Position numbers and translations under genes: made by a program
Notes under the pieces: model-generated
Database searches by the model: none
What the model saw: only the letters and a program-made list of their open reading frames with translations
Told to the model about the DNA's origin: nothing
In this document: piece after piece, positions 3,556 through 60,092 of the stretch
Numbering within the stretch: position 1 is the stretch's first letter
Layout of the letters: the number at the start of each line of letters is the position of its first letter
NCBI RefSeq assembly: GCF_009707545.1
Contig: NZ_WLYK01000001.1
Coordinates: 1,488,001-1,552,000 of the forward strand
Direction: 5' to 3'
Source: Nakamurella alba
GTDB taxonomy: Bacteria; Actinomycetota; Actinomycetes; Mycobacteriales; Nakamurellaceae
Length of the DNA: 64,000 nt

Positions 3556-4716
3556 GTGGAGGACTTCGCGATCCCGGGCCGGGAATACGCCCTGGTGTTC
3601 GCGACGGCCGTCATCATCACCTACCTGGCCACCGGCGCCGTCCGCCTGCTGGCGGTGAAGATCAAGGCGCAGACACCGATCCGGGACCGCGACGTGCACG
3701 CCCTGCCGACCCCACGGATGGGCGGTGTCGCCGTCTACCTCGGGGTGGCCGGGGCCGTGCTGATGGCGATGAACCTGCCCGCCCTGCGCCGCGCCTTCGA
3801 ATCCTCGTCCGAGATCACCGGCGTGCTGGTCGCGGGCGCGGTGATCGTGCTGGTCGGGGTGCTGGACGACCGGTTCGACCTGGACTCCGTCACCAAGCTG
3901 GCCGGCCAGATCCTGGCCGCCGGGATCCTGGTGCTCTTCGGTGTGCAGTGGCTGTTGATGTGGATGCCGGCGAACAATCCCGAGGGCGGCACCACCGTCA
4001 TCTTCAGCCAGGTGCAGGGCGCGCTGATCACCGTGCTGCTCACCCTGGTGCTGGCCAACGCGATGAACTTCATCGACGGTCTCGACGGGCTGCTCACCGG
4101 CGTCGCGATCATCTCCTCCATCGGCATCTTCGTCTTCTCCACACACCAGTTGCTGCTCTCCGAGGACGATCTCGCCGGATCCCAGCCGCCGCTGATCGCC
4201 GCCGCGCTGGCCGGCGCCTGCATCGGCTTCCTGCCGCACAACTTCTTCCGCGCCCGGATCTTCATGGGCGACTCCGGGTCGATGTTCATCGGTCTGACCA
4301 TCGCCGCGGCGACCGTGTCGGCCGGCGGCAAGCTCAACATCGCCGAGTTCGGCGGCCCGCGGTCGACGATCGCGCTGCTGGCGCCGCTGATCGTCAGCCT
4401 GGCCGTGGTGTTCATCCCGCTGCTGGACTTCCTGATGGCAGTGGCCCGGCGCACCCGCGAGGGACGACACCCGTTCAGCGCCGACAAGCGCCACCTGCAC
4501 CACCGGATGCTGGCCATCGGCCACACCCAGCGCCAGGCGGTGCTGATCTTCTACCTGTGGGCCGCCGTGCTCTGCGCCGGCGCCGTCTCGCTGGCATTCG
4601 TCAAATGGCAGGTCACCGTGGGACCGTTCGCGGTGGGAGTGGCACTCGCCGCGGTGCTCTCGGCCTGGCCGTGGGTGCGCGCGCGACGCCTGCGCAAGGC
4701 CCGGGCGGCCGCCTGA
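3556..4716 (+). CDS. wecA: undecaprenyl-phosphate N-acetylglucosamine 1-phosphate transferase (MraY/WecA family)
   Basis: This polytopic membrane enzyme (386 residues, about ten or eleven hydrophobic segments) transfers a sugar 1-phosphate from a UDP-sugar to polyprenyl phosphate. In actinomycetes this begins the linker unit of arabinogalactan or a related wall glycan. Visible motifs are DD (104-105) in LDDRFD, NFIDGLDG (171-178) and the HLHH metal/nucleotide motif (313-316). Its position before the ATP synthase operon matches mycobacterial rfe. The stop shares one base with the next ATG (TGATG). The exact sugar is inferred from family and context. Confidence 0.9.
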   Translation: MEDFAIPGREYALVFATAVIITYLATGAVRLLAVKIKAQTPIRDRDVHALPTPRMGGVAVYLGVAGAVLMAMNLPALRRAFESSSEITGVLVAGAVIVLVGVLDDRFDLDSVTKLAGQILAAGILVLFGVQWLLMWMPANNPEGGTTVIFSQVQGALITVLLTLVLANAMNFIDGLDGLLTGVAIISSIGIFVFSTHQLLLSEDDLAGSQPPLIAAALAGACIGFLPHNFFRARIFMGDSGSMFIGLTIAAATVSAGGKLNIAEFGGPRSTIALLAPLIVSLAVVFIPLLDFLMAVARRTREGRHPFSADKRHLHHRMLAIGHTQRQAVLIFYLWAAVLCAGAVSLAFVKWQVTVGPFAVGVALAAVLSAWPWVRARRLRKARAAA

Positions 4717-41962: not shown

Positions 41963-42514
41963 GTGTTCGGCCTGTCCTGGGGTCAGATCCTGCTGATCGT
42001 CCTCGTCGGAGTGTTCCTGCTCGGTCCAGAGCGCATCCCGACCGCGGTGCAGTGGGTGACCTCCAGCATCAAGAAGGTCCGCACCATGGCGCAGGGGGCC
42101 CAGGCGCAACTGCGCAGCGAGATCGGCCCTGAACTCGACGAGCTCCGCCGGCAGATCGCCGACCTGCAGTCCCTCAAGGAGCTGCAGGAGCTGCGTGCGC
42201 TGCGCGACCTCAACCCGCGCAACCTCCTCGGCAAGAGCATCCTCGGGGACGAGTTCTCCGGTGGTGTCACCGGTTTCCTCGGGCTCGACAAGGACAAGCT
42301 GACCGGTTCCGGCGTCGCCCCCAGCCTGGATGCCGACCCGGTGAAGGACGCCGCGGCCGACGCGTCGGCCAACGGCGCCGCGCCGCAGTCGGTCCCCGCC
42401 ACCCCGCCCCCGGTCGACTTCGCCAAGCCCGCCGCCGAAGCCGCCCCACAGGCCCCCGCACCCGCCCCGGTCGTGAGGACCGGCCCGATCCCCTTCGACG
42501 ACGACGCGACGTAA
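41963..42514 (+). CDS. tatB: Sec-independent translocase subunit TatB
   Basis: TatB binds twin-arginine signal peptides with TatC. The 183-residue protein has an N-terminal membrane helix (about 4-21, LSWGQILLIVLVGVFLLGP) with the conserved Gly-Pro hinge. An amphipathic helix and a long charged coiled coil (ELDELRRQIADLQSLKELQELRAL in parts) follow. The C-terminus is Ala/Pro-rich and disordered. GTG 41963 has AAGGAGG upstream. Its TAA is immediately followed by a copy of the structured repeat described elsewhere in this list. Confidence 0.92.
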   Translation: MFGLSWGQILLIVLVGVFLLGPERIPTAVQWVTSSIKKVRTMAQGAQAQLRSEIGPELDELRRQIADLQSLKELQELRALRDLNPRNLLGKSILGDEFSGGVTGFLGLDKDKLTGSGVAPSLDADPVKDAAADASANGAAPQSVPATPPPVDFAKPAAEAAPQAPAPAPVVRTGPIPFDDDAT

Positions 42515-42516
42515 TT

Positions 42517-42640
42517 TGGCGGCGTGGCCGCCGCGGGCCGCTGGTCCCTAGGGGGATCCCGCGTTCTGCGCGTCTTGCACTCTGCTCGTTCCTCGCGCCG
42601 TGCTTCGATGCTCGACCGCACGATCCCGGGACCAGCGACC
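42517..42640 (+). repeat. structured intergenic repeat, copy 1
   Basis: It starts 3 nt after the tatB stop and reads in the tatB direction. Its 5' hairpin is GGCGGC-GTG-GCCGCC (42518-42532). The closing arms are GCTGGTCCC (42540-42548) and GGGACCAGC (42628-42636), perfectly complementary. It shares GGGATCCCGCG and GATGCTCGACCGCACGATCC with copies 3 and 4, but lacks their leading GCTGAACA. Confidence 0.85.
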
Positions 42641-42778
42641 GTTTTCGTTCCGGCCGGCCGTGAAACTGGCGGCAACTTCCGATGGACGCCTTCAGTGGGA
42701 GGACAACGGCCGCCGATCCTGACCGCAGGACGCCAGTCCTCGGTGTTGGTCCTCTGACTTCAGCGTTCGGCGCGAACC
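42641..42778. other. spacer between repeat copies
   Basis: These 138 bp between two repeat copies contain no supported gene. Composition is ordinary; short open frames here have no ribosome site or family similarity. Confidence 0.5.
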
Positions 42779-42911
42779 ACATGGCCGCTCGTCGGGATCG
42801 TGCGGGCGAGCATCGCAGCCCGCAGTGAGGGACGAACGTAGGCGAGAAGCGCAGGACGCGCGATCCCTTACAGGACGAGCGGCCCGCGGCGGCCACGCCG
42901 CCATGTTCAGC
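42779..42911 (-). repeat. structured intergenic repeat, copy 3
   Basis: It reads on the minus strand, downstream of mrp and directly after truncated copy 2. It starts GCTGAACAT, has hairpin GGCGGC/GCCGCC (42888-42893 and 42897-42902) and closing arms GGCCGCTCGTC/GACGAGCGGCC (42874-42884 and 42783-42793), a perfect 11-bp match. The arms differ from those of copy 1 yet remain complementary. Confidence 0.88.
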
Positions 42912-42912
42912 A

Positions 42913-42983
42913 GGCGAGAAACGCAGGACGCGGGATCCCTCTGGGGACCGGCGGCCCGCGAGCGCCAGCTCGCAATGTTCAGC
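42913..42983 (-). repeat. structured intergenic repeat, copy 2 (truncated)
   Basis: It begins 2 nt after the mrp stop in the mrp direction: GCTGAACATT, hairpin GCGAGC-TGGC-GCTCGC (42958-42973), then the common GGGATCCCGCGTCCTGCG. It stops at CTCGCC where copy 3 begins, so the 3' closing arm is missing. Confidence 0.88.
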
Positions 42984-42984
42984 C

Positions 42985-44130
42985 CTACATGTTCCTCTTC
43001 GGCGTGAGGCCCAACTGGAGGCCGGCGAGGGCGCGGGGTTTGCGTTCGGACAGGGTGTCGGCGACCTTCTGGAGGGCGAGGGCGGCGGGGCTGTCGGGGG
43101 ATTGCAGGACCAGCGGGGCGCCGGCGTCGCCGGCGGCGCGCAGGGTGGTGTCGAGGGGGATCTGGCCGAGCAGCGGGACGGTGGTGCCGGTGGACCGGCT
43201 GAGCGACGCGGCCACCCGCTCCCCGCCGCCCGACCCGAACAGGTCGAGCACGGTGCCGTCGGGCAGCGTCATCGGCGACATGTTCTCCACCACCCCGACG
43301 ATCTTCTGCCGGGTCTGCAGCGAGATGGCCCCCGCGCGCTCGGCGACCTCGGCGGCGGCGTCCTGCGGGGTGGTCACCACCAACAGTTCGGCGGTCGGCA
43401 GCAGCTGGGCGGTGGAGATCGCCACGTCACCGGTGCCCGGCGGCAGATCCATCAGCAGCACGTCGAGGTCGGTCCAGTAGACGTCGGCCAGGAACTGCTG
43501 CAACGCCCGGTGCAGCATCGGGCCACGCCAGACCACCGGAGTGTTGCCGTCGACGAACATGCCGACGCTGATCACCCGCACCCCGTGCGCGATCGGCGGC
43601 AGAATCATGTCGCCGACCCGGGTCGGCCGGCCGGTGACGCCGAGCATGCGGGGCACCGAGAACCCGTAGATGTCCGCGTCCAGCACACCGACGGTCAGCC
43701 CGCGAGCTGCCAGCGCGGCGGCCAGGTTCACCGTGACTGTCGACTTGCCGACCCCGCCCTTGCCGGAGGCGACGGCGTACACCCGGGTCGTCGACTCCGC
43801 GCGGGCGAACGGGATGTCCTTGGTGGCGCCGCCCTTGAGCTTGTCCCGCAGCCCCGAGCGCTGTTCGTCGGTCATCACGCCGAGGGTGAGCTGCACCTCG
43901 GTGACACCCGGCACGGCGCGCACGGCGGTGGTCACGTCCCGGGTCAGCGTGTCGCGCAGCGGACACCCGGCGATGGTCAGCAGCACGGTGACCTCGACGA
44001 GACCCTCCGGGGTCACCTCGAGCCGGTCGACCATCCCGAGATCGGTGATGGGGCGCCGGATCTCCGGGTCCTTCACGGTGCCGAGCGCGGTCCGGACCGC
44101 CTCGAGCACCGACGTCGCTGCCTGCGTCAT
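42985..44130 (-). CDS. mrp: Mrp/NBP35-type Fe-S cluster carrier ATPase
   Basis: This P-loop protein carries and delivers iron-sulfur clusters. The 381-residue protein has an N-terminal MIP18/DUF59 domain (1-95, with IAGCPLRDTL). An ATPase domain follows, with the deviant Walker A GKGGVGKS (123-130), LDADIYGFS and MDLPPGTGD. The expected C-terminal CxxC of the Fe-S site is not obvious, as in several actinobacterial Mrp proteins. It is followed immediately by two tandem copies of the structured repeat. Confidence 0.93.
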   Translation of the reverse strand: MTQAATSVLEAVRTALGTVKDPEIRRPITDLGMVDRLEVTPEGLVEVTVLLTIAGCPLRDTLTRDVTTAVRAVPGVTEVQLTLGVMTDEQRSGLRDKLKGGATKDIPFARAESTTRVYAVASGKGGVGKSTVTVNLAAALAARGLTVGVLDADIYGFSVPRMLGVTGRPTRVGDMILPPIAHGVRVISVGMFVDGNTPVVWRGPMLHRALQQFLADVYWTDLDVLLMDLPPGTGDVAISTAQLLPTAELLVVTTPQDAAAEVAERAGAISLQTRQKIVGVVENMSPMTLPDGTVLDLFGSGGGERVAASLSRSTGTTVPLLGQIPLDTTLRAAGDAGAPLVLQSPDSPAALALQKVADTLSERKPRALAGLQLGLTPKRNM

Positions 44131-45050: not shown

Positions 45051-46136
45051 TCAGAGCCAGCCGCGTCTGCGCAGCAGCATGAACAGCAGGACGCAGACCG
45101 CCGCCATCACCACGATGCTGACGGCGAACCCGATCGGCGAGTGCATCCCCGGGATGTAGTCGAAGTTCATGCCGTAGATGCCGGCGATCGCCGTCGGCAC
45201 CAGCGCGATCGCCGCCCACGCGGAGATCTTGCGCATGTCCTCGTTCTGCCGGGTGGTGACCTCGGCCAGCGCCGCCGAGACCAGCGTGGTGAGCATCTCG
45301 TCGAAGGTCGAGATCCGTTCCGTCACCAGGCTGAGGTGGTCCTCGACATCCCTGACGTAGTCCCGCACCTCGCCCGGCACCAGCGGACTCGGGCTGCCGG
45401 ACAGGGTCTTCAGCGGCACCGCCAGCGGGGTGACCGCCCGTCGCATGCTCAGCACCTCCCGCTTGAGCAGGTAGATGTCCTCGGTGTCCACATCGTCGGA
45501 GGAGAAGACCGCCACCTCCATCTCGTCGACGTCCTCCTCGATGTCGGCGATGACCGCGAGGTACTCGTCGACCACCCGGTCGGCGATGGCGTGCATGACC
45601 GCGGCCGGGCCGAGCGCCAGGTGCTGCGGGTCCGCCTCCAGCTTCTGCCGCAGACCGGCCAGCCCGGAGTGCTCGCCGTGCCGCACGGTGACGATGAAGT
45701 CGGCGCCGAGGAACATCATGATCTCGCCGGTGGTCACGATCTGGCCGTTGCCGGTGGACGCGTGGTCGACGAACTTCACCGTCTTGAGCACCAGGAACAG
45801 GTACTGCCCGTACCGCTCCAGCTTCGGCCGCTGGTAGGCCTGGACGGCATCCTCGACGGCCAGCGGGTGCAGCCCGAAGGTCTCCGCCACCGCCGACATC
45901 TGCGCCGCCGTCGGCTCGTGGAAGCCGACCCAGACGAAGCCGCGGTTCTTCTCGCGGATCCGGTTCAGCGCCGACACCGGGTCGCTGCACAGCTCCTGTC
46001 GCACGCCGTCGACGTAGGCGGCGCAGTTGACCATGGTCGCGCCGTCGCCGCCGGGAGTACCGGGGACGGTGCGGGGCGTCCTGCGATGGATGGCCCGGAA
46101 CGGGGGCAGCGAGGGCAACGACGGCAGGACGGGCAT
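45051..46136 (-). CDS. corA: magnesium/cobalt transporter CorA
   Basis: CorA is a homopentameric Mg2+ channel. The 361-residue protein has a long cytoplasmic funnel domain, then two membrane helices at the C-terminus. The selectivity motif GMN is at 322-324 (GIYGMNFDYIPGM) and the basic end is RRRGWL. ATG 46136 is chosen because AAGGAGGG lies directly upstream; an in-frame start 45 bp further out lacks this. It converges on the stress-protein gene and diverges from the PHP gene. Confidence 0.95.
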   Translation of the reverse strand: MPVLPSLPSLPPFRAIHRRTPRTVPGTPGGDGATMVNCAAYVDGVRQELCSDPVSALNRIREKNRGFVWVGFHEPTAAQMSAVAETFGLHPLAVEDAVQAYQRPKLERYGQYLFLVLKTVKFVDHASTGNGQIVTTGEIMMFLGADFIVTVRHGEHSGLAGLRQKLEADPQHLALGPAAVMHAIADRVVDEYLAVIADIEEDVDEMEVAVFSSDDVDTEDIYLLKREVLSMRRAVTPLAVPLKTLSGSPSPLVPGEVRDYVRDVEDHLSLVTERISTFDEMLTTLVSAALAEVTTRQNEDMRKISAWAAIALVPTAIAGIYGMNFDYIPGMHSPIGFAVSIVVMAAVCVLLFMLLRRRGWL

Positions 46137-56665: not shown

Positions 56666-57361
56666 TTGCGGTGGTTGGCCGTGGACGGCGGCGCCGCGTG
56701 CGTGTCTGTGCTCGACGTCCGGACCGGCCGGATCGAGATCGAGCGGCTGACCGAGGCGCCCGCCAGCGCCGCGGCGGCCGAGGAATTCGGCCGCGCGCTC
56801 GCCGTCACCCACGCCGCCGGCGCCGAGGCGTTCGGCAGCGGACCGACCGGTGGTCCGGGTGTGGCATTCATCGGGAGGCAGGAGCTGCCGCTCGGTTCGT
56901 ACAGCAGCTGGGGTGCGTTCTACGCTGACCTGCGGCTGCTGCCGTACTCGCGGGCGGCGCACCGGATCGGCAACCTGTCGGATGCCGGACTGCGATCGGT
57001 CGAGAAGGTGTGCGAACGGCTGCACGCGGGGGAGTTCGACGACGGACGGCCGCCGGCCCGGATCCACGGGGACCTGTGGGCCGGCAACCTGCTCTTCACC
57101 CCGACCGGCGCGGTGATGATCGATCCCGCCGCACATGGCGGCCACGGGGAGACCGATCTGGCGATGCTCGCTCTCTTCGGCGCGCCGCACCTGCGCCGGA
57201 TCCAGCAGGCGTATGCCGAGGCCGCGTCGCTCGACAGCGGTTGGCCGGACCGGATCGCCCTGCACCAGCTGCACCCGCTGCTGGTGCACGCCGTCACCCA
57301 TGGCGCCTCCTACGGCTCGCATGCTGCTGAACACTGCGAGCTGGCGCTCGCGGGCCGCTGA
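56666..57361 (+). CDS. fructosamine kinase family protein, N-terminally truncated
   Basis: Fructosamine kinases phosphorylate glycated amines. The protein keeps the catalytic loop IHGDLWAGNLLF and VMIDPAAHGGHGETDLAML. Similarity begins abruptly: the first residues of the open frame (from 56600) correspond to KPGGGPAGFFEAEAAGLRWL, which in typical family members is preceded by about 40 residues of the nucleotide lobe. The complete msrA gene occupies that space. No ATG or GTG fits; TTG 56666 is formal only. The last codons (AEHCELALAGR) are supplied by a repeat element. It may be a decaying gene. Confidence 0.55.
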   Translation: MRWLAVDGGAACVSVLDVRTGRIEIERLTEAPASAAAAEEFGRALAVTHAAGAEAFGSGPTGGPGVAFIGRQELPLGSYSSWGAFYADLRLLPYSRAAHRIGNLSDAGLRSVEKVCERLHAGEFDDGRPPARIHGDLWAGNLLFTPTGAVMIDPAAHGGHGETDLAMLALFGAPHLRRIQQAYAEAASLDSGWPDRIALHQLHPLLVHAVTHGASYGSHAAEHCELALAGR

Positions 57362-57460
57362 TCCCCAGAGGGATCCCGCGTCCTGCGCTTCTCGCCTCCG
57401 TTCGTGCCTCTCTACGGCTGCGATGCTCGACCGCACGATCCCGGGATCTGCGGCCATGTT
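57326..57460 (+). repeat. structured intergenic repeat, copy 4
   Basis: It overlaps the end of the fructosamine-kinase frame, in the same orientation. It has GCTGAACA, hairpin GCGAGC-TGGC-GCTCGC (57336-57351) and closing arms GGCCGCTGATCCC (57353-57365) and GGGATCTGCGGCC (57443-57455), complementary with one mismatch. The kinase stop codon (57359-57361) is inside the 5' arm. Confidence 0.88.
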
Positions 57461-58664: not shown

Positions 58665-60092
58665 ATGACCGACCCGAGCGGCGCAGCCCTGTCCAAAGGC
58701 CAGAACGCGCCGGTGCCGCCCGGGGCGCTCGTCGTCACGGTCGACGTCGCCGCGCCGGCCGACCTGTCCGCCCTGCTGGTCACCCCGGCCGGGAAGGTGC
58801 GCAGCGACGCCGATTTCGTCTTCTTCAACCAGCCGGACGGTCCGGGCGTGCGGTGCGTCCCGGCGTCCGGCGGCGGCTCCTGGCGGATCGAGATCGACCC
58901 GGCCGCGGTGCCGGCCGACATCGACCAGGTGCGCGTCGTGTCCAACCTGGACCAGCCCGGCGCCCGCTTCGGCCAGTTCGCGCCGCCGGTGGCCCGGGTG
59001 TCGACCGGCGCCGGACAGCCGGTGATCAGCTACCAGGCCACCGGCCTGGACTCCGAGAGCATCGTGATCTTCCTCGAGATCTACCGCCGTGCCGACACCT
59101 GGAAGGTGCGGGCGGTCGGCCAGGGCTACGCCGGTGGTCTCGCCGACCTCATCCGCGACCACGGGGTGAGCGTCGACGACGACGGCGGCCAGGCTGCACC
59201 TCCGCCACCGCCCGCTCCGCCGCAGCAGGCCTACCAGCCGCCACCGTCTCCGCCGGCCCAGCCCGCCTACCAGCCGCCTCCACCGCCGCAGCAGGCCTAC
59301 CAGCCCCAGCCGCAGCAGGCGTACCAGTCCCCTCCGCAGCAGGGCTACCAGCCGCCGCCCTCGGCGCCGCCGAGCTACCAGCAGCCGCCGCAGGCGTACC
59401 AGCCCCCGCCGCAGCAGGGGTACCAACCGCCTCCGCCGCCGGCACCCCCGCAGCAGCCCGCCTACCAGCAGCCGCCGGCGGCGCCCGCGCAGTCGTCGGG
59501 TGAGGTGTCGCTGGTCAAGGGTCGGTCGGTGAGTCTGCAGAAGGGCCAACGGGTCTCGCTGCGCAAGGAGGACGGCGCGCTCACCATGATCCGGATGGGG
59601 CTGGGCTGGGACCCGGTGCAGAAGCGCGGCCTGTTCGGCAGCCGCGAGGTCGAGATCGACCTGGACGCGAGCGTCCTGCTCTTCGCCGACCAGCAGCCCG
59701 CCGACGTGGTCTTCTACAACAACCTGCAGAGCCGCGACGGCTCGGTGCAGCACCAGGGCGACAACCGCACCGGCGCCGGCGACGGCGACGACGAGGTGGT
59801 GCTGATCGACCTGAACCGGATCCCGGTGCACATCACCTCGCTGATCCTGATCGTCACCTCCTACGAGGGACAGACCTTCGAGCAGGTGCAGAACGCGTTC
59901 TGCCGGCTGGTCGACCACACCAACGGCGGTGAGCTCGCCCGCTACACCCTGGCCGGTGGCATGCCGTTCACCGGCATGGTGATGACCAAGGTGTTCCGGG
60001 CGCCGGACGGCTGGAAGCTGCAGGCGATCGGCGAGGGCATCCAGGCACGTACCCCGGTCGAGGCGGTGCCCCAGCTGACCAGGTTCCTGTGA
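58665..60092 (+). CDS. two-domain TerD-family stress protein
   Basis: This 475-residue protein has two TerD-like domains. The first (about 1-170) contains ALSKGQNAPVPPG, FVFFNQPDGPG and FLEIYRRADTWKVRAVGQGYAGG. A low-complexity Pro/Gln/Tyr linker (about 178-290) of QAYQPPP-type units follows. The second domain (about 290-475) contains VSLVKGRSVSLQKGQ, VVFYNNLQSRDGSV, GDDEVVLIDL and KVFRAPDGWKLQAIGEG. TerD domains bind Ca2+ through Asp-rich loops and occur in tellurite/phage/stress operons. The stop overlaps the next gene (GTGA). Confidence 0.88.
   Translation: MTDPSGAALSKGQNAPVPPGALVVTVDVAAPADLSALLVTPAGKVRSDADFVFFNQPDGPGVRCVPASGGGSWRIEIDPAAVPADIDQVRVVSNLDQPGARFGQFAPPVARVSTGAGQPVISYQATGLDSESIVIFLEIYRRADTWKVRAVGQGYAGGLADLIRDHGVSVDDDGGQAAPPPPPAPPQQAYQPPPSPPAQPAYQPPPPPQQAYQPQPQQAYQSPPQQGYQPPPSAPPSYQQPPQAYQPPPQQGYQPPPPPAPPQQPAYQQPPAAPAQSSGEVSLVKGRSVSLQKGQRVSLRKEDGALTMIRMGLGWDPVQKRGLFGSREVEIDLDASVLLFADQQPADVVFYNNLQSRDGSVQHQGDNRTGAGDGDDEVVLIDLNRIPVHITSLILIVTSYEGQTFEQVQNAFCRLVDHTNGGELARYTLAGGMPFTGMVMTKVFRAPDGWKLQAIGEGIQARTPVEAVPQLTRFL
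59197..59493 (+). repeat. low-complexity repeat encoding the TerD linker
   Basis: Units such as CAGGCCTACCAGCC and CAGCAGGCGTACCAG recur about ten times with variation, encoding QAYQPP and QGYQPP blocks. This stretch is expected to change length among relatives. Confidence 0.75.

Follow-up and report, generated by a model that had tools for sequence, protein, structure and literature searches.

A family of folded repeats tied to stop codons in Nakamurella alba and a core it shares with repeats of other actinobacterial families

REP sequences carry tags of the GTAG or CGTC families, and the termini of GTAG REPs often supply stop codons to the open reading frames that flank them (accessible text of PMC3733652). 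Several activities have been ascribed to them, namely mRNA stabilisation, termination or, where a REP lies within 15 nt of a stop codon, mRNA decay (as given in the accessible part of PMC5082802). MIRUs are described, in the available portion of PMC12548453, as short tandem dispersed repeats that are apparently mobile and that insert at start codons with a -4 nt (NTGA) overlap.

We analysed a 64,000-nt stretch of the N. alba genome (the window) and a repeat that is clustered there between tatB and mrp. Like REP, BIME and REPIN elements, the N. alba repeat consists of short hairpins that are dispersed between and near genes in many copies. Unlike REPs, it has a foot that is mostly ACAT and not a GTAG or CGTC tag, a unit of about 125 nt in which long covarying arms enclose a conserved apical core, and 25 full copies, whereas REPs usually exceed 100 per genome (excerpted text of PMC2817692). 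It resembles MIRUs, too, in habit and differs from them in lying behind stop codons, often between convergent genes, and in having the opposite core polarity and a far longer stem. We favour, with some reserve, the reading that it is a non-autonomous mobile repeat of the REP/MIRU kind, and it represents a real, apparently undescribed family of stop-codon-linked folded repeats. The family provides a countable case of a bacterial repeat that is locked to stop codons and whose fold is kept while its letters change, and its conserved core links it to the repeats of other families; this makes testable how small repeats spread without a recognised transposase and what makes them accumulate at the ends of genes.

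Repeat units in the window and in the genome

The original prediction had described three clustered copies in the tatB–mrp gap. The arms and hairpins that it quoted are present in the sequence, and its copies 1 and 3 are full units (Table 1); copy 2 is a left half only, comprising the first hairpin, the 5' arm and GGGATC, and is thus without a closing 3' arm. Copies 2 and 3 form a tandem, copy 2 lying a few bases 3' of the mrp stop codon (TAG). The fourth copy in the window lies where a fructosamine-kinase-like gene ends, the frame of this gene entering the unit and stopping inside it.

Table 1. Repeat units, their parts and the upstream genes in the window, numbered from its first nucleotide.
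Feature	Position	Strand	Remarks
Full unit, copy 1	42513..42640	+	Covers the last two bases of the tatB stop TAA; covariance model R1, 115.5 bits; BLAST
Hairpin H1, copy 1 (GCGGCG/CGCCGC)	42519..42534	+	
P1 5' arm, copy 1 (13 nt)	42536..42548	+	Pairs with 42628-42640 at 12 of 13 positions
P1 3' arm, copy 1	42628..42640	+	
P2 5' strand GGGATC, copy 1	42553..42558	+	Partner GATCCC at 42622-42627
Apical core, copy 1 (long-loop type)	42566..42613	-	Given in the polarity common to other families
Full unit, copy 3	42783..42907	-	Covariance model R1, 135.2 bits
Apical core, copy 3 (long-loop type)	42808..42854	+	Given in the polarity common to other families
Left-half unit, copy 2	42912..42983 (about)	-	BLAST; covariance model, 29.8 bits at 42919-42979
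Full unit, fourth copy (L037)	57330..57455	+	Covariance model R1, 132.8 bits
tatB-like gene, upstream of copy 1	41963..42514	+	Without a Pfam match at E 0.001; name taken from the original prediction
mrp, upstream gene of copies 2 and 3	42985..44130	-	Pfam ParA/NUBPL and FeS_assembly_P

The unit of about 125 nt is predicted to fold into a hairpin followed by a long stem-loop. Along the upstream gene's strand, the order is stop codon, ACAT (in most copies), H1, P1, bulge, P2, P3 and apical core. H1 has 6 bp and is separated by one unpaired base from P1, which has 11, 12 or 13 bp and whose arms are 67-79 nt apart; a bulge of 4-6 nt follows P1 on the 5' side, while on the 3' side P1 directly adjoins P2 (GGGATC/GATCCC). 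P3 is weaker than the other stems, and the apical part carries the conserved core, which comes with a short loop in 5 of the 25 units and with extra stretches of 6-7 nt on both sides of the loop in the other 20. Dinucleotide shuffles rarely folded as well as the native sequences: none of 200 did so for copy 1 and one of 200 for copy 3, and most of the 11 copies folded beat their shuffles, the two exceptions having 33 and 13 of 200 shuffles that were as good. Folded as single-stranded DNA, copies 1 and 3 were also better than shuffles on both strands (z -3.2 to -4.4).

Across copies it is the arms that vary and the interior that is conserved. Inverted arms, short length and dispersed copies would also be expected of a MITE derived from an ordinary DDE-type insertion sequence, with the arms as its terminal inverted repeats. 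Varying arms around a conserved interior are, however, the opposite of transposase-bound ends, and the conserved terminal inverted repeats of a DDE-transposon MITE were not found in the N. alba family. The regions examined contained neither left and right halves flanking a gene nor an autonomous partner with the same ends, and no target duplication was established at the N. alba repeats. We consider a MITE origin very improbable.

The original prediction had made further copies in the genome a check on its proposal, and they are there: BLAST returned 68 rows in N. alba, and 25 full units were found. These were delimited with a covariance model built from an alignment of 26 rows, 25 of them distinct (the window copy at 57330 and L037 are one and the same unit, which was counted once in the covariation tests). 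In the N. alba genome (6.05 Mb in 29 contigs), where 150 of 12876 first-look candidates were scored, the full units measure 112-128 nt and score 100.2-143.6 bits; the best score below them is 44.8 bits. Half-units are common and stand in tandem with full units, a left half on the 5' side or a right half on the 3' side. Because several arrays contain unmatched left or right halves, nested insertion was rejected as the only source of the half-units and local duplication is preferred; the half-copies would have arisen largely by such duplication at the hairpin arms. We count 24 arrays, including two without a full unit (L035 and L044a) and leaving out lone H1 hairpins. An H1 that stands alone, or with a short piece of left half, occurs in L041 (about 3763-3789), L050 (3136-3161) and L136 (about 2391-2460). 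A relaxed H1 search of the genome gave 50 places against 22 in the control, and its weakest matches are noise.

Among the genomes searched, the repeat is restricted to N. alba. With 150 candidates scored in each of 16 congeners, the covariance model gave no match at E 0.001 and a single one at E 0.207; a shallow search of 396 other genomes of the order, congeners included (8 candidates each), gave none. BLAST against 101 genomes (6 candidates scored each) matched four, namely N. alba and three relatives with weak matches of 28-38 nt (E 5e-4 to 9e-4), which we take as chance. Eight exact matches to a 21-nt right-half pattern in a collection of species genomes were likewise dismissed as chance, the best model match there having E 2 or worse, and the phages, plasmids and viral contigs searched contained no match. 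The tatB–mrp gap, the one locus at which we compared empty sites, measures 470 bp in N. alba and 1-144 bp, without the repeat, in the 15 of 16 congeners in which tatB was found beside mrp; the tatB stop codon is TAA in N. alba and TGA in those 15 congeners. Most of the 144-bp gap, which belongs to congener G005 (L063), is taken up by another kind of short tandem repeat (GGCACAACGAG..), and the tatB–mrp site may therefore attract other repeats.

The statement that no described family has this sequence held up, since the repeats of the window and of six further loci had no Rfam match at gathering score. When core strings were searched in 5.39 million open papers, which leaves subscription papers mostly uncovered, only a MIRU292 table matched, and no paper on the repeat was found. 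Elsewhere in the window an ordinary L31-Actinobacteria ribosomal protein leader (RF03158, 60.9 bits) lies at 126-173 on the + strand.

Covariation of the stems

In the alignment of 25 distinct rows, 97.2% of the cells of 24 pairs form standard pairs. Two-sided changes occur in 12 of the 24 pairs, with 45 double-changed cells compared with 12.3 in shuffles; the copies are related, so these cells are not independent and represent fewer events than cells. None of 500 shuffles reached any of five covariation measures. As a control, we slid the structures along the alignment, which gave 1-5 double-changed cells. We also used a tree-based null of our own writing, in which substitutions were re-placed along the tree in 60 simulations. 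By this test, two-sided variation is seen in 16 of 36 pairs; 6 of these, half of them in H1 and half in P1, are significant at E<0.05 for the set. When all column pairs were tested, only the H1 block and one P1 pair stood out; two cross pairs within H1 that do not belong to the structure score equally, because both bases change together. The original prediction read complementary changes in both arms as selection on a folded RNA or single-stranded DNA. The changes do exceed shuffles, slid controls and the tree-based null, and the folded molecule may be either RNA or single-stranded DNA.

The GGGATC...GATCCC core, which had been singled out as nearly invariant and as a candidate further helix, is indeed nearly invariant and is paired as P2 in the predicted fold. 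It adds little covariation of its own; in two copies one P2 pair is A-T instead of G-C.

In H1 whole blocks change together (GAGC/GCTC, GGCC/GGCC and GGCG/CGCC), and unusual arms are common to neighbouring duplicates in L044, L049 and L052. Both observations are what quasi-palindrome correction would produce, a process in which template switching between arms makes imperfect stems perfect and which would keep the arms complementary by mutation alone, without selection on the fold. Such correction could lie behind part of the covariation. As an explanation of the whole, we judge it quite improbable: 67-79 nt separate the P1 arms, and the P1 positions that have changed are not the same from copy to copy; another family (f16), with different and shorter arms, also covaries; and the core is conserved though it lies mostly outside well-supported stems.

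Placement at stop codons and the folded strand

The original prediction had overlooked that the repeats are tied to stop codons, as it had overlooked the core common to the repeats of other families. Twenty of the 24 arrays lie at -32 to +24 nt from a sense stop codon of the upstream gene, on the gene's strand. The genes were called with our own codon-usage scripts rather than taken from annotation, and the calls of the two scripts do not agree everywhere. For an intergenic base and strand picked at random, the chance of falling within 0-24 nt of a sense stop is 0.079 (from the genes of the window), which gives a binomial P of about 6.5e-19 for 20 of 24 arrays, and of 3e-9 even at a chance of 0.25. 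These values treat as independent some arrays that share one intergenic region, and the null counts 0-24 nt only, while 12 of the 20 fitting arrays are at small negative distances, mostly because one or more bases at the end of the stop codon belong to the trimmed unit.

In 12 of the 24 arrays the foot follows immediately on the stop codon, which is TGA in 8 of them and TAG or TAA in L041, L045b, L052 and tatB. Pfam matches were obtained for 18 of the 20 upstream proteins, the tatB product and that of the L039 gene being without one; the matched proteins include NusB, RibBA domains, an NDH-2-type oxidoreductase, a PriA domain, UvrD/PcrA domains and Mrp. The fit of L039 is doubtful, as its upstream gene has no Pfam match and an earlier caller had placed L039 inside a longer frame. 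The four exceptions to the stop rule are L040 and L045a, which lie behind no sense stop, L047, which is antisense, and L048b, which is 581 nt off. A convergent gene lies downstream in 15 of the 24 arrays, and in the window, L044 and L051 each of two convergent genes has its own, oppositely oriented array.

Such placement raises the possibility that the repeat is a functional RNA element behind genes, one that terminates transcripts, guards their 3' ends or prevents read-through into convergent neighbours and that owes its multiplication to its usefulness. Its immediate 3' position, its orientation on the gene's strand, the frequent convergent neighbours and the strong predicted folds on both strands would all suit such an element, as would the roles of REPs in mRNA stability, termination and decay (accessible part of PMC5082802). 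Against it, the search for intrinsic terminators (a GC stem with a T-run) found none at 42400-43100 of the window, so that a simple intrinsic terminator was rejected for the window copies. As RNA, the complement of the gene strand folds better than the gene strand itself in 24 of 25 copies (mean z -4.25 vs -2.58, with dinucleotides controlled and the relatedness of copies not), which is at odds with a simple RNA element in the 3' UTR of the upstream gene. Mismatches in H1, P1 and P2, read on the gene strand, comprise 11 A.C, 3 G.T and 6 others, the reverse of what selection on gene-strand RNA would be expected to leave, and the repeat was not found in the 16 congeners. On balance we regard a functional RNA element as rather doubtful. 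The complement of the gene strand has the core polarity of the other families; if RNA is selected at all, these data suggest, and do no more than suggest, that the strand with the core polarity is a likelier target than the 3' UTR of the upstream gene.

We return to the mobile repeat that we favour. It is supported by the many units in a single genome and their absence from the 16 congeners at E 0.001, by the short tatB–mrp gaps of 15 congeners, by the stop-codon placement, by the covariation and by the core present in other families; the relatedness of the copies, the four arrays off the stop rule, the reversed core polarity and the longer apical loop of 20 of the 25 units count against it. 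Its copies would have been set against the 3' side of stop codons, in the orientation of the gene, and its movement might involve a trans-acting enzyme and a single-stranded intermediate. In the arms, the fold and not the letters would be recognised, while the core and the ACAT-H1 foot would be recognised by sequence. Because the foot CTGAACAT either brings a stop codon along or preserves the existing one, an insertion would be nearly harmless. The RAYT-type domain Y1_Tnp (PF01797) had no match in the N. alba genome, whereas the control found it in 5 of 14 genomes, and a RAYT/Y1 source of the repeat was rejected on this ground.

A core common to the repeats of other families

The core that several families have in common is the more interesting part of the finding. 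A relaxed core pattern matched 13 of 121 genomes, namely N. alba and 12 of 120 relatives, which belong to f2 (seven), f13 (one) and f16 (four); it matched none of the 16 congeners, and as a control the reversed pattern matched none of the 121. In a class-wide sample 6 of 394 genomes matched, and besides N. alba the core is present in only one of them (f16); the other four have single matches to other sequences, which were not counted as core repeats. The consensus core of the N. alba short-loop type, to which 5 of the 25 units belong while the other 20 have a longer apical loop, is identical to that of f16 and f2 at 31 of 34 nt (P<=2e-4). The comparison scores 28, compared with shuffled maxima of 22 and 22.5 and with 9 for a wrong-strand control (P 0.012).

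In 35 stretches examined from f2, f13 and f16 we found 46 core units in 36 arrays. Both neighbouring genes are co-directional, on the strand that reads GAGCATCGCAGCGAGG, in 28 of the 36. An upstream stop codon lies no more than 40 nt from the core in 23 of the arrays, and 3 arrays are inside a called gene. These repeats resemble the N. alba family in the 34-nt core, in lying mostly behind stops and, in f16, in having arms that covary. They differ from it in that the H1-P1-P2 architecture was not seen in them, in their 6-bp arms (f16) and other flanks (f2), and in the polarity of the core relative to the gene, which is reversed. Ten of 17 f16 units have NTGA at -18, 28 of 29 f2/f13 units have TGAG at -5, and an open frame such as MSEHRSEERARSG is read in the core repeats of f2 and f16. 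NTGA-type starts, mostly co-directional neighbours and an open frame give the repeats of f2, f13 and f16 a resemblance to MIRUs in habit. By sequence, a MIRU identity found no support from MIRU292 (as given in the accessible part of PMC7977185), the one MIRU compared, which is no closer to the N. alba core or the f2/f16 cores than shuffled sequences are (P 0.53-0.76). In L212-L231 (f2 and f13), the TGAG start/stop-like site mostly comes first and small peptides such as MSEHRSEERARSGA can be read; several of these arrays are tandem at about 54-84 bp.

The f16 arms form pairs in 92.3% of cells, and their covariation score was reached by none of 500 shuffles. Three of six pairs are double-changed, a count reached by 10 of 500 shuffles, while the other measures were reached by none. 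The pair count uses 14 of 17 units, L203, L207 and L208 having been dropped because their arms or flanks differ; these three pair poorly, and leaving them out favours the stem.

A more tentative proposal, which we think unlikely and set out for its consequences, is that these repeats form one class of stop-codon-addressed mobile elements in several actinobacterial families. Members would have a common core of about 34 nt and lineage-specific self-complementary arms and would stand in either polarity; the folded strand would be the core-polarity RNA, and spread would proceed through a structured molecule and not through terminal repeats. We know of no bacterial repeat that spreads in this way.

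Within the N. alba genome a relaxed core search gave 22 places, compared with 7 for the reversed control, and its weakest matches are noise. The core was found there with other arms and in other settings, which argues that the arms are exchangeable and that the core is the constant part. In L137 (C3, about 59830-59900), the core has different arms and the polarity seen in the other families, and it follows closely on the stop of an rpmJ-like frame (identified by eye). L135 (C18, about 45130-45260) combines H1 and the core with entirely different arms (GCGGACGC/GCGTCCGC), again at a stop codon. Finally, L040:11236-12537 (C1, about 1678235-1679536) is a 433-aa frame that contains two in-frame 30-aa core repeats (MEPSEHRRSERG..); here the repeat was apparently inserted and duplicated inside a gene.
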